Shown here: positions 26,261-32,080 of the stretch, piece by piece
How the letters are laid out: each line of letters begins with the position of its first letter
How positions within the stretch are numbered: position 1 is the first letter of the stretch
DNA from: Verrucomicrobium sp.
GTDB lineage: Bacteria; Verrucomicrobiota; Verrucomicrobiia; Methylacidiphilales; UBA1321
Direction of reading: 5' to 3'
DNA: 64,000 nt
Assembly: GCA_017849585.1 (NCBI GenBank)
Contig: JAFIGT010000034.1
Span: 1 to 64,000 of the forward strand
Made by a program: the position numbers and the translations under genes
Notes under the pieces: generated by a model
What the model was told of the DNA's origin: nothing
The model's input: only the letters and a program-made list of their open reading frames with translations
Database searches by the model: none

Positions 26261-27625
26261 CTAAGCCCAGGTTTTGAACGCTTGCACTAGAAGCCAGACA
26301 TTCAGCGAAGCAATCAGCACCGCGAGAAACCAAGCCGCGCCCTGCATCCAGAGCGGGTTTACGAACTCGCCCATTTTCTTCTTGTCGCTCGTGAACATCA
26401 CCAGCGGGAATACGGCGAAGCTGAGTTGCATGCTGAGGACGACCTGGCTGAAGATCAGGAGCTTGGCTGTTCCGTCCTCGCCCCACAGGGCGGTGACGAT
26501 CACGGCCGGGATGATCGCGATGCCGCGGGTGATGAGGCGACGGATCACCGGAGGTAGGCGCAGATTGAGAAAGCCCTCCATGACGATTTGACCGGCGAGG
26601 GTGCCGGTCAACGTGGAGTTTTGCCCCGAGGCGAGCAAGGCGATGGCGAAGAGTGTGCTGGCGAGTCCTGTCCCGAGCAGGGGGGCAAGCAGGCGGTGGG
26701 CATCCTGTATTTCCGCCACGGTGTTGTGGCCATGACGATAAAAAACAGAGGCGCCAAGGATCAGGATGGCAGCATTGATGAACAGCGCGCACATCAGCGC
26801 CACGGTGGAATCGATCGTGCCGAATTTGATCGCCTCGCGCTTGCCGCGGGAAGTCTCGTCATAGCCACGTGTCTGCGTGATGGAGGAGTGGAGGTAGAGA
26901 TTATGCGGCATCACGGTTGCCCCCAGGATGCCGATGGCGATATAGAGCATCGCCGGGTTGTGAATGATTTCCGCAGAGGGAATACAGGCGGCGGCAACGG
27001 CGGACCATTCCGGTTGCGAAAGAACAATTTCCACGGCGAAGCAGCCGCCGATGATGAGAATCAGAGAGATGACCAATAATTCGATCCAGCGAAAGCCGCG
27101 GTGTTGCAGGAACAGTATCACCATGACATCGAGCGCGGTGATGCAGACGCCCCAGATCAAGGGAATGCCGAAGAGGAGATTGAGCGCGATGGCCGAGCCG
27201 ATGACCTCCGCCAAATCACAGGCCGCGATGGCGATCTCGCAGGCGACCCAAAGGCCGAAGTTTACCTTTGGGCTGTAATGGTTGCGGCACGCTTGCGCCA
27301 GGTCATGACCCGTGGCGATTCCGAGCTTCAGCGCGAGGTGCTGGAGAAAGATCGCCATGAAATTGGAAATGATGATGACGGAAAGCAGCGCGTAATTGAA
27401 TTGCGAGCCGCCCGCGAGGCTGGTGGCCCAATTGCCCGGATCCATGTATCCAACGGCGACGAGATAGCCGGGACCGGAAAAGGCGAGAAACTTGCGCCAG
27501 AAACCGACCGAGCGGGTGGCGTGGGGAACGGGTACGCTGCGGTACACCTCCGGCAGGGAGTGGGAGGTGACGCGCGGATGAGGACTTCTCGCGGAGCGCG
27601 ATGTGGAGTCCTGGGGCGTATGCAT
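26261..27625 (-). CDS. mntH: Nramp-family Mn2+/H+ symporter
   Basis: A 454-residue inner-membrane transporter with about 11 helices. The metal-binding DPGN motif is at 62-65 ([11 protein letters not shown]), and MPHN in [13 protein letters not shown] is the second half of the site. It imports manganese by proton symport. It is divergent from an MntR-type regulator, with a palindrome between them. An upstream GTG-type extension of four residues is possible. Confidence 0.93.
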
Positions 27626-27668
27626 ACACACTAACAACTAAGCGAGCGGCGGGGTCGCGTCAATGTCA

Positions 27669-27690
27669 TTTGTTTGACATATCGAACAAA
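27669..27690. promoter_or_regulatory. Candidate MntR operator
   Basis: A 22-bp imperfect palindrome with arms TTTGTTTGA and TCGAACAAA lies in the 142-bp divergent gap between mntH and mntR. Its position and symmetry fit a site for a DtxR/MntR dimer that represses mntH at high manganese. The arms resemble, but were not compared in detail with, published MntR boxes. Confidence 0.55.
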
Positions 27691-27767
27691 ATATCCCTTC
27701 TCTGACAATTTACGATGGCAGCGATTTTAACTTGGAACCGATTCCGGCTTCTGTGAACATCTGGCGG

Positions 27768-28199
27768 ATGGCCAGCCCCTTCTACGGCAGCAACGACATT
27801 ACCGAGATCGCGGAGGATTACCTGGAGCGTATTCAGGAGCTTGTTGATCGAAAGGGCTATGCCCGGGTCACCGATCTGGCCGAGGCTCTGCATATTGGCC
27901 GCTCCACGGTCTCCACGATGGTGCGCAAGCTGTCGCAGCGCGGTTTCATCAACTACGAACGCTATCGCGGTTTCACGCTCACCGAGTCAGGCCGCAAGAT
28001 TGCCCTGCAGATCAAGTCGCGCCATGAGACCTTGACCCGCTTTCTGCGCCATCTCGATTTGCCGGAAAAAATCGTGGCCACCGATGTGGAAGGCATCGAG
28101 CATCACCTGAGCAATCAAACGCTCGCTCGGCTCAAGCAGCTCTCGGATTATTGGCAGGAAAATCCCAAGGCTTGCGCCCAGATCTTCAAGCAGGGCTGA
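27768..28199 (+). CDS. mntR: Manganese-dependent transcriptional regulator, DtxR/MntR family
   Basis: A 143-residue regulator: a winged-helix domain (about 10-75; VTDLAEALHIGRSTVSTMVRK is its recognition region) and a C-terminal metal-sensing and dimerisation domain with HETLTRFLRHL and EGIEHHLSNQTL. No SH3 domain is present, as in MntR. Divergent from mntH. The ATG at 27768 is preferred over a longer frame. Its last Gln-Gly codons and stop are part of a 46-nt dispersed repeat. Confidence 0.9.
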   Translation: MASPFYGSNDITEIAEDYLERIQELVDRKGYARVTDLAEALHIGRSTVSTMVRKLSQRGFINYERYRGFTLTESGRKIALQIKSRHETLTRFLRHLDLPEKIVATDVEGIEHHLSNQTLARLKQLSDYWQENPKACAQIFKQG

Positions 28200-29108: not shown

Positions 29109-29127
29109 CGGGCGGAGCATTCGTCCG

Positions 29128-30585
29128 CTAGCGTGCCAGCGAGGGATTCCAGAGGTTCACGCCTGTGGCTGGGTCGAACGTCTCTTCGACGTTGAGCGAC
29201 TCCACGTGGCCATCCACGAAGACGTAGTGAGCTCCGGCTTTGGGCCCATGCCGGGTTGTATCGAGCGCATTACGCGCTGCACCCAAGCCTGACCAGAGGT
29301 GGCACATGATGTGGTCGCCCATGAAGCCGCTATGCTGGCTCTCGGCGAGCAAAAGCGTGCGCGATGGTTGTGGCACTTGGATCAAGCGATGCCATGTGGC
29401 CGGTTTTCCGCTGTAGCGCTCGTAGGCTTCCAGTTCAAAGTGAACGTTGAGTGCGTAGCTCCAGCCCTCGACCCAACTGGAATCTTGTGGGCAGACGAAG
29501 TGTCGCGCGTAGACACTCTTCCACGCGTCTTCAGAACTATATTCGGTTTCGCCGAGGTAACCGATAATGGAGCGGCCCCAACCGGGTTGGCCCTTGCTAT
29601 AGGCGGAATGTGAACTGCGCGGAAATTCGCCGTCGTGATCCTGCGCATAGAGTAAAATCCCGGCGCCGAGTCCTCGCAATTTGGACATGCACTGCGTGGC
29701 TTTGGCTTGGGAGTGGAGATTGGAGAATCCCGCGCTTGCTAACGCTGTCAGCACGGAGACAATCGTTACGGCCAGCAGTAATTCCATCAAGGTGAAGCCG
29801 TGAGTGGTGCGAGATTTTTTCGATCGGAGCCGTGACCACCACGCAAGAGTGGCACCAGCACTTGCCAACAGAATCGCGCTTGACGGTTCCGGTACGACGT
29901 TCCAGTTGAGCGTGACGAAGGCGGAATCGTAACCGCTCACGGCGGTGACATCGTTTGTCCAGTCCACGACGTGTGACGTGATCACGGAGCTTGTTGTATC
30001 GGTCAAAGAGGCGGCGAAGATTTCGAATGTTGCCGAGACTGCTCCGAGTGTGCTCGAGGTGAACACAGGATGCCACATCGAGAGGGTTCCCCAGATGACG
30101 GTGTCGCCTGGATTCTGAAACACCGGCTGGAACAAATCCGGGCTCCACTCATCGACGTAGCCGGTTAATCCGGGTGTTGCGGACACCATGCGAATGGCCA
30201 GCACGACACCCGAGGGCAGGGGATCGCTGGCCTCGGTCATATCCATGTCGAATCCGAACTGCGTACTAAACGCGAGGTTCTGTTGCGAGGGGTCCAAGGC
30301 GCTGTACCAAGGGCTGGAGGGATCGAACGAGTCGTTCGCGTATGGATAGCCTTTACCACCTCCGGCTACAGGCAGATACCATTCGCGTAGCGGTGCCATC
30401 GGCAGATTGTTTTGCGTGAGCGCAACGGAGATCGCACCGGTATTCGTGCTGGTATTGGTGACTGTCACCACCGGCATGACCATGCCACCGAGCGAATCCG
30501 GATCGGGCACCCATTGCAGCGTGCTGGCTCGCGCCGGGAGTAATCCCAGCGCGAACACGAGCATCAAGAGGAAGTGTTTCATCAT
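29128..30585 (-). CDS. PEP-CTERM protein fused to a type IV prepilin-like domain
   Basis: A 485-residue protein in one unbroken frame. Residues 1-21 are a signal peptide and 22-228 a beta-rich secreted domain. A PEP-CTERM signal follows (VPEP at 231-234, hydrophobic helix, basic RLRSKKS). Directly after comes a prepilin N-terminus, HGFTLMELLLAVTIVS, with cleavage Gly263, Phe+1 and Glu+5 (E268), and a DUF1559-like pseudopilin head ending AGAHYVFVDGHVESL. The upstream 30600-31367 gene is a tandem paralogue of the N-terminal half. Two sorting systems, exosortase and prepilin peptidase, could act on one chain. Confidence 0.82.
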   Translation of the reverse strand: MMKHFLLMLVFALGLLPARASTLQWVPDPDSLGGMVMPVVTVTNTSTNTGAISVALTQNNLPMAPLREWYLPVAGGGKGYPYANDSFDPSSPWYSALDPSQQNLAFSTQFGFDMDMTEASDPLPSGVVLAIRMVSATPGLTGYVDEWSPDLFQPVFQNPGDTVIWGTLSMWHPVFTSSTLGAVSATFEIFAASLTDTTSSVITSHVVDWTNDVTAVSGYDSAFVTLNWNVVPEPSSAILLASAGATLAWWSRLRSKKSRTTHGFTLMELLLAVTIVSVLTALASAGFSNLHSQAKATQCMSKLRGLGAGILLYAQDHDGEFPRSSHSAYSKGQPGWGRSIIGYLGETEYSSEDAWKSVYARHFVCPQDSSWVEGWSYALNVHFELEAYERYSGKPATWHRLIQVPQPSRTLLLAESQHSGFMGDHIMCHLWSGLGAARNALDTTRHGPKAGAHYVFVDGHVESLNVEETFDPATGVNLWNPSLAR

Positions 30586-30599
30586 GTGCTCCCGTTTGG

Positions 30600-31367
30600 T
30601 TAGACGATGGCGGCATCGCGGCGTTGACGCCACCGCCGCAGCGCGAGCCCGGACAGCGCTCCGACACCGAGCAGCAAGCCACTCGATGGTTCCGGCACTG
30701 CCTGCCACGTGAGTGTGACAGACGATGAGGTGTAACCGGCGGTCGGCGTGGCGGCGGTGTCGGCGTCGACGGTATATGTCGTGCTGACAGCCGTAGCGGG
30801 TGTGGCCACGTAGATTTCAAATGTGGCCGTGTAGATTGCGCCCTCGACGAAATTTGCCGCGTCGATGGTGAAGACGGGGTGCCACATCATCAGCGAACCC
30901 CACAACACGGAATCACCTGTGCTGCTATAGACGAGGTCAAACACATCGGCGGTGCTATTGTAGAGATAGCCCTTGAGTCCTGCTGAAGCGGAGGTCATCT
31001 GGATGCCGAGTGTCGTACCCGATGGCAGCACGCTTGAGAGCGTGGCGGCGGCCGGGTTGAATCCGAACCGGCTGCTGAAGGCGAGACCAGAGCCGCTTAC
31101 GGGATCGAGTTCGTCGGACCAACTGGCGCCATTGTTCAGATTATCTCCGGGCCGCCAATAGGTGAGTGGCGCGATCAACGGCACGGTGGAAGGCTGCGTC
31201 ACTGTGATGTAGCCGGAGTTTGCTCCGGTCGAAACGAAGTCCACGGCGGGCATGATCATGCCACCTTGTTGCATCGGGGTGGGAATCGCAGTCAGCGTCG
31301 TGGCCTGCACGACAGGAGAAATGCCGAGCGCCAGCAAGACACTCGTCACCATTAAAAATGATTTCAT
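30600..31367 (-). CDS. PEP-CTERM sorting-domain protein
   Basis: A 255-residue secreted protein: signal peptide (SFLMVTSVLLALGISPVVQA), a beta-rich domain, and a C-terminal exosortase signal with AVPEPSSGLLLGVGALSGLAL followed by basic RRWRQRR. The domain is paralogous to that of the next gene: both share GGM[IV]MP[AV] near the start and LWGSLMMWHPVF/IWGTLSMWHPVF later. Only 14 bp separate the two genes, so they form an operon. The role is unknown; PEP-CTERM proteins are usually exported to the cell surface or biofilm matrix. Confidence 0.85.
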   Translation of the reverse strand: MKSFLMVTSVLLALGISPVVQATTLTAIPTPMQQGGMIMPAVDFVSTGANSGYITVTQPSTVPLIAPLTYWRPGDNLNNGASWSDELDPVSGSGLAFSSRFGFNPAAATLSSVLPSGTTLGIQMTSASAGLKGYLYNSTADVFDLVYSSTGDSVLWGSLMMWHPVFTIDAANFVEGAIYTATFEIYVATPATAVSTTYTVDADTAATPTAGYTSSSVTLTWQAVPEPSSGLLLGVGALSGLALRRWRQRRDAAIV

Positions 31368-31544
31368 AGTTTTTTCGGATGAAGCCGGATCAAGGCACAC
31401 GCCAAGCCACCTCCGGCGGTTCGGTGGCAGGACGGCACACGGCAGGAGCGTTAGCTCGAGCCATGTCGGGGAAGGAAATTCGACCGCACATGGAGCGCGG
31501 CGAATTACCCGGAAATGAACTGGAAAAAACACCCGGACGGGTGC

Positions 31545-31937
31545 TTAGGCTTTTACGAAAAGAGGCACCGGCGAAAGCGGTTCAACGGTGCGGGAAGGGT
31601 ATGAAAGGGATTGAGGCCACGGATGGGACTGGGTGGCGTTGGCCAAAATGGGAAGACAGGCGACGACAACGGGCAATACGCTCTCGGCTTTTTTCTCTAC
31701 CTTCACAAGCGCCGGGAGTTTCTCTTCCTTCTGGCGTTGATCTTGAATGCGGTGACACTTCGAGCAGGGGGCTTTGCCGCTAAACGTCTTTTCCAAACCG
31801 GCCAGCAGCGAACCCTGCTGGATCGAATAAGTGCGCGTCATCTCCACCCACGCCACCGTTTGAAATAACGCCCAGTGACCGCCCGCGATGCAAAACATCG
31901 CGAGAAACATCAGGAGATGGGCAAGGCGGCGTAGCAT
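31545..31937 (-). CDS. Small membrane-associated protein with a CxxCH motif
   Basis: A 130-residue protein with an N-terminal hydrophobic helix (AHLLMFLAMFCIAGGHWALF) and a GKAPCSKCHRI segment, the CxxCH pattern of covalent haem attachment. The rest is Lys/Glu- then Pro-rich with a second hydrophobic stretch. No cytochrome c fold is otherwise visible, and the motif might instead bind metal. Lies downstream of nothing obvious and ends before the PEP-CTERM operon on the same strand. Confidence 0.5.
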   Translation of the reverse strand: MLRRLAHLLMFLAMFCIAGGHWALFQTVAWVEMTRTYSIQQGSLLAGLEKTFSGKAPCSKCHRIQDQRQKEEKLPALVKVEKKAESVLPVVVACLPILANATQSHPWPQSLSYPSRTVEPLSPVPLFVKA

Positions 31938-32080
31938 TGGCGCAGAGCTTACAAATGACGTGAGCGATAAGGCAAGTTAATACGGCTATGAATCTCAAGA
32001 GGATTTGCTGGCCGGCATCCCTTGCGCTGGCGGAATTGGAAATTGGCATTTGAAATTGGTTGCTGTAACCTCGCGAGCCT

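Follow-up and report, generated by a model that had tools for sequence, protein, structure and literature searches.

Introduction

PEP-CTERM regions mostly lie at the very end of the proteins that carry them. According to Haft et al. (2006; PMC1569441), the region ends no more than 10 residues before the C-terminus in 87% of them, and the rare long-tailed proteins may be non-functional. The same source and PMC3237569 place the motif of PEP-CTERM-type helices outside and the basic tail inside. Type IV prepilins have cytoplasmic leaders, which can be long, and their peptidase works at the cytoplasmic face (PMC10191384). Here, we describe a gene from Verrucomicrobium sp. in which a PEP-CTERM protein runs without interruption into a prepilin, and compare it with its relatives. 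The gene is located within a 64,000-nucleotide stretch of contig JAFIGT010000034.1, hereafter called the window.

Results

A PEP-CTERM protein and a prepilin in one frame

The first-pass annotation had described a secreted domain, a PEP-CTERM signal and a prepilin site in one unbroken frame, with VPEP at residues 231-234, cleavage between G263 and F264 and a tandem paralogue upstream that has only the first half. All of this is borne out. The minus strand contains 485 codons without a stop (Table 1), the plus strand over the same interval being full of stops. The initiating ATG at 30585 is preceded by a GGGAG ribosome site and followed by a signal peptide, MMKHFLLMLVFALGLLPARAS, a secreted beta-rich domain, the PEP-CTERM signal, the prepilin signal and a pilin-like head. 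The paralogue, located 14 nt upstream, is 44% identical to the first half.

Table 1. Features of the fused gene and its surroundings, with the evidence for each
Feature	Position	Strand	Evidence
Fused ORF, 485 aa	29128..30585	minus	Frame reading and domain searches
First half: signal peptide, family domain, PEP-CTERM	29812..30585	minus	13-member alignment, AF2 model, TIGR02595
Junction: RLRSKKSRTTHG, a predicted basic loop in the cytosol; A6 run at 29815-29820	29800..29840	minus	Scan of single-base changes
Second half: prepilin signal and pilin-like head	29131..29808	minus	Comparison with 11 stand-alone prepilins
Paralogous PEP-CTERM gene in tandem, lacking the second half	30600..31490	minus	ORF list, domain search, pairwise comparison
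Small CxxC protein, N-terminal hydrophobic helix	31545..31937	minus	Homologues beside the pair in relatives
Cassette, three protein families	29109..32027		Comparison with congener G002

The PEP-CTERM signal spans residues 231-257 and comprises the PEP motif, a helix and a basic cluster (VPEPSSAILLASAGATLAWWSRLRSKK), the last including the run RLRSKK. In the full protein, it is recognized by TIGR02595 barely above the cut-off (16.6 versus 16 bits; 22.1 bits in the genome scan) and falls below the cut-off of Pfam PF07589 (14.7 versus 20.7 bits). More than 220 residues follow the signal, and the extreme C-terminal position would be regained solely after a cut at G263. The helix is the second least hydrophobic among 22 compared, yet within their range; this weak hydrophobicity counts against the processing of the fusion into two products.

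The domain preceding the signal belongs to a family with the conserved motifs GGM.MP ... W.G.MWHPVF ... ATFEI, and the family-invariant residues are kept in the window protein (alignment of 13 members). Its AF2 model is beta-rich (pLDDT 76), with a helix at residues 235-257 of the model; the single-sequence model of the whole fusion is unusable (pLDDT 36). Among NCBIfam models, only those for sorting signals gave matches of note to the first half, with no choice-of-anchor or other named domain, and no solved structure matched it by sequence. Fold searches returned middling matches, with Z scores up to 6.7 and no Foldseek E value under 0.001, and the modelled fold may be described, at most, as an Ig-like beta arrangement.

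In the second half, cleavage would separate THG from FTLMELLLAVTIVSVLTALA, with G263 and F264 flanking the site and E268 at the Glu+5 position, followed by about 20 hydrophobic residues, as in sites with Gly or Ala before Phe. Both N_methyl (PF07963; 23.8 versus 21.2 bits) and the GFxxxE prepilin model TIGR02532 (25.9 versus 16.3 bits) match above their cut-offs, and the PDB matches of this half are pilins and pseudopilins, restricted to the stem. In place of a short N-terminal leader, 262 residues precede the site. Alignment with relatives shows that the family-invariant residues are kept in this half as well. The DUF1559-like head proposed in the first-pass annotation did not hold, the match to DUF1559 (SBP_bac_10) being non-significant (13 bits versus a cut-off of 23.3, E 0.11). 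The head is nearer to the H-X9-DG type (TIGR04294), yet also below the cut-off (17.2 versus 19 bits), and has two residues more between the conserved positions than the relatives.

Relatives carry two adjoining genes

A prepilin-profile scan of genome contigs retrieved 11 relatives of the second half from Verrucomicrobiota and Planctomycetota, 35-45% identical to it (L065-L075, including the loci from genomes G033, G020, G037 and G097). All 11 are unfused and adjoin a gene of the partner family, which is located upstream in seven cases and downstream in four. Likewise, when 98 relatives were searched, the two halves adjoined each other in G033, G020 and G037, in the order PEP-CTERM gene, stop, prepilin. 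The genes are closely packed: in L065 and L066, they are joined by TGA-CCGCC-ATG, in L067 (G037), they overlap by 16 nt, with a GTG start for the prepilin, and in L069 and L070, they touch. Such touching or overlapping genes in the nearest relatives are probably translationally coupled. In two loci (L068:367-1182 and L073:561-1394), the partner has the family domain without a PEP-CTERM signal and ends in ...FFRMKYTP and ...YFRLAPHMEQ, respectively, suggesting that the anchor varies between lineages.

We then ran a virtual-fusion profile, which includes the window itself, on two partly overlapping genome sets, 384 from the class and 388 from the phylum. Among the candidates scored, at most 15 per genome, no stop-free junction was found elsewhere. 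The full-length matches outside the window that combine a PEP-CTERM protein and a prepilin come from about ten other genomes, and each contains one or two in-frame stops. The partial stop-free matches inspected were ordinary prepilins, and stop-free candidates in G235, G356, G293, G354 and G227 were rejected as prepilins with short or spurious upstream extensions and no PEP-CTERM protein. An initial scan of the genome-contig collection with the full-length fused protein gave no match.

The search for the same junction in relatives, suggested at first pass, thus leaves this genome as the only one with an in-frame joint. In all relatives recovered, the two genes are separate neighbours, which supports the earlier proposal of a recent fusion of neighbouring genes. 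That homologues always occur as separate genes, the observation named in advance as one that would count against the annotation, speaks against a designed polyprotein maintained by conservation, but does not call the existence of the joint in this genome into question. Because both halves have orthologues with conserved residues and the gene order is the same in relatives, the fused layout goes beyond chance. Comparison at the sequence level shows a two-gene unit of conserved order, present in part of the Verrucomicrobiota and Planctomycetota, that appears to have been fused in frame here.

The junction

No ATG or GTG lies in frame from VPEP to the cleavage site. The sole candidate for an internal start is an in-frame TTG within the PEP-CTERM helix, 24 codons upstream of the cleavage site and lacking an obvious ribosome site; it amends the first-pass statement on start codons between the halves. 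A scan of all single-base changes identified 41 deletions, 6 insertions and no substitutions that restore two genes with a usable start near the prepilin site. A deletion at any of the 41 positions from 29800 to 29840 divides the frame into a gene for the PEP-CTERM protein and one for the prepilin, the latter starting at GTG, and the stop and GTG start of the presumed ancestral arrangement are still legible at the junction. The ancestral unit would have encoded a secreted protein with a PEP-CTERM signal and, behind it, the partner prepilin. The simplest route to the fusion would be the insertion of one base in a short overlap, for which the A6 run is the likeliest place.

The same A6 run raises the question of a sequencing or assembly error. 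Were the true run one base shorter, overlapping genes ending in ...RSKNLAPLTASP (stop) and starting with (GTG)MVVTAPIEKSRTTHGFTLMEL... would be restored, in keeping with the overlapping or touching genes of relatives, some of which have GTG starts. The overlap so implied, about 54 nt, is longer than those of the relatives. Moreover, 11.5 kb aligned to the congener G002 at 87-93% identity contain no unbalanced coding indel, 55 homopolymers of at least 5 bases included, the few gaps of one or two bases being compensated or intergenic; the assembly is thus not prone to indels, and we regard an error at the A6 run as decidedly unlikely. Scarcely probable at all is dual decoding, whereby slippage on the A6 run would provide some stand-alone PEP-CTERM protein with the tail ...RSKNLAPLTASP, or the TTG would start the pilin half: the run lies exactly at the joint and a stop in the shifted frame follows soon after, but six-base homopolymers are common (52 in the window) and the TTG has no ribosome site.

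Predicted topology and processing

A cut at G263 would leave a tail of 33 residues, counted from the V of VPEP, compared with 22-36 in stand-alone proteins (n = 21); it contains five Lys or Arg residues and no Asp or Glu. The fused chain is predicted to form a hairpin, in which the signal peptide and a periplasmic beta domain are followed by an inbound PEP-CTERM helix, a basic loop of 12 residues in the cytosol, an outbound prepilin helix and a periplasmic pilin head. As the topologies of PEP-CTERM and prepilin signals are known from their families, the chain should satisfy both unchanged. Given that prepilin peptidase works at the cytosolic side of the membrane, a cut after G263 would give back the two ancestral products, namely a PEP-CTERM protein with a basic tail of normal length, ready for the exosortase, and a mature pilin with Phe as its first residue. 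The genome encodes two exosortases (C41:12746-13582 and C2:71109-71876), one prepilin peptidase (C10:61404-61754) and several T2SS/T4P ATPases. As also proposed at first pass, the fusion could be a precursor processed into two products; the predicted topology and these enzymes would allow it. We know of no prepilin peptidase that cleaves a loop connecting two helices, which counts against such processing.

Taken as one reading, a fusion followed by hairpin formation and a cut at G263 that restores both ancestral products is the account we tentatively favour, with prospects close to balanced, judging from the sequence comparisons. The fusion would then be a near-neutral polyprotein that delivers its two products at a fixed 1:1 ratio. 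The stronger proposition, that two surface proteins with different sorting routes are made as a natural polyprotein, with the loop cut by prepilin peptidase before the exosortase acts on the other face, is possible, but we consider it somewhat doubtful. If true, it would show that prepilin peptidase accepts non-terminal sites, and the widespread tandems of PEP-CTERM and prepilin genes described below would be functional partners in a fixed ratio. The fused gene offers a natural test of the need of the peptidase for a free leader.

Two alternatives accept the fusion as real. The product might not be properly processed, the pilin being kept out of filaments by its blocked N-terminus and the PEP-CTERM signal being buried mid-protein, with the paralogue covering the first function. 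The presence of the fusion in a single genome, the intact first-half paralogue next door and the suspicion, voiced in PMC1569441, that long-tailed PEP-CTERM proteins are non-functional all fit this possibility. Against it, there is no stop, family-invariant residues are retained in both halves, and the length and charge of the junction are right for cutting, and we judge it unlikely, albeit a serious contender. Alternatively, the uncut protein might have acquired a new role as a two-helix inner-membrane protein that tethers a surface domain to a pilin-like head. The frame is indeed intact and the association of the partner genes extends over two phyla, but the joint has recognizable sites for two distinct proteases, both of which the genome encodes, and no other genome among those searched has such a fusion, making this alternative very unlikely.

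PEP-CTERM and prepilin tandems across the genome

The fused pair is one of many in the source genome, the one genome surveyed completely for tandems. Profile searches detected 96 PEP-CTERM and 94 prepilin loci, weak ones included. By motif search, 18 of the 94 prepilin loci, that of the window included, follow a same-strand PEP-CTERM motif at a distance of 12-192 nt; 18 pairs within 300 nt compare with 0.28 expected under uniform placement. Reading of 20 further regions identified 18 separate pairs (the other 17 and L063), with a stop before each prepilin site. The genome contains at least 18 other tandems of a PEP-CTERM gene followed by a prepilin gene, all separated by stops (L045-L063). The joint is TGATG in L045, and the prepilin start may fall inside the PEP-CTERM gene in L048. 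The window pair has the smallest spacing and is the sole fusion among these tandems. Comparable tandems were also observed elsewhere in the class (genomes G002, G088, G161, G098, G225 and G202).

The recurring tandem is probably a more general finding than the fusion. Our literature search returned no paper combining PEP-CTERM with 'pseudopilin', and the accessible parts of papers on PEP-CTERM with prepilin terms contain no description of such pairs. Pilin-like proteins of the Verrucomicrobiota-Planctomycetota group are numerous and most have no known job; if the tandems are functional partners, exosortase surface proteins would be linked to these.

The cassette and its neighbourhood

The fused gene is part of a 2.9-kb cassette consisting of genes for a small CxxC protein, the two paralogous PEP-CTERM proteins and the prepilin, located between pyrH and frr on the strand opposite to both. 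In the congener G002, the pyrH of which is 92% identical, pyrH adjoins frr, and the alignable blocks are 20 bp apart; hence, either this genome acquired the cassette or the congener lost it. The cassette ends show neither a target-site duplication nor flanking repeats, and a scan of the locus yielded no promoter. Homologues of the CxxC protein occur beside the pair in at least five other genomes, namely at L067, L068, L072, L073 and L075; the family has conserved Q..W..M and CxxC motifs and a proline-rich end and corresponds to no Pfam family.

By eye, divergent genes for an Nramp-type transporter and a DtxR-type regulator are located between tsf and pyrH (window 26261-28199). Their proximity to the cassette and the invariant Met and His residues in the families of both halves (GGM, MxH; DHxMxHxW) hint at metal handling; this idea was set aside, as the neighbourhoods of the relatives, inspected by eye, are not consistently metal-related. 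In L065 (307-2192, minus strand), sensor kinase and response-regulator genes that by eye resemble redox-type two-component pairs lie directly upstream of the pair, facing away.

Comparison with known systems

The closest counterparts are the stand-alone pairs L065-L075, such as those of Spartobacteria bacterium LR76 (L069) and Planctomycetales bacterium ZRK34 (L074), in which the two families lie side by side as in the window, often together with the small CxxC protein. Unlike in the window, these are two genes, and four of the pairs (L071, L072, L074 and L075) have the reversed order. With PEP-CTERM/exosortase proteins (TIGR02595, PF07589; PMC1569441), the first half shares the signal peptide, the PEP motif, the helix and the basic cluster, as well as a genomic setting with many such proteins and encoded exosortases, but the signal in the window is located mid-protein, scores weakly and is followed by a prepilin. 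The second half resembles type IV prepilins and pseudopilins (TIGR02532, PF07963) in the G|FTLMEL site, Glu+5 and the hydrophobic stem, whereas a secreted protein of 262 residues, complete with signal peptide, stands in for the short leader. Finally, relatives keep the H-X9-DG head of TIGR04294, whereas the window protein, below the cut-off of that model, has H-X11-DG.
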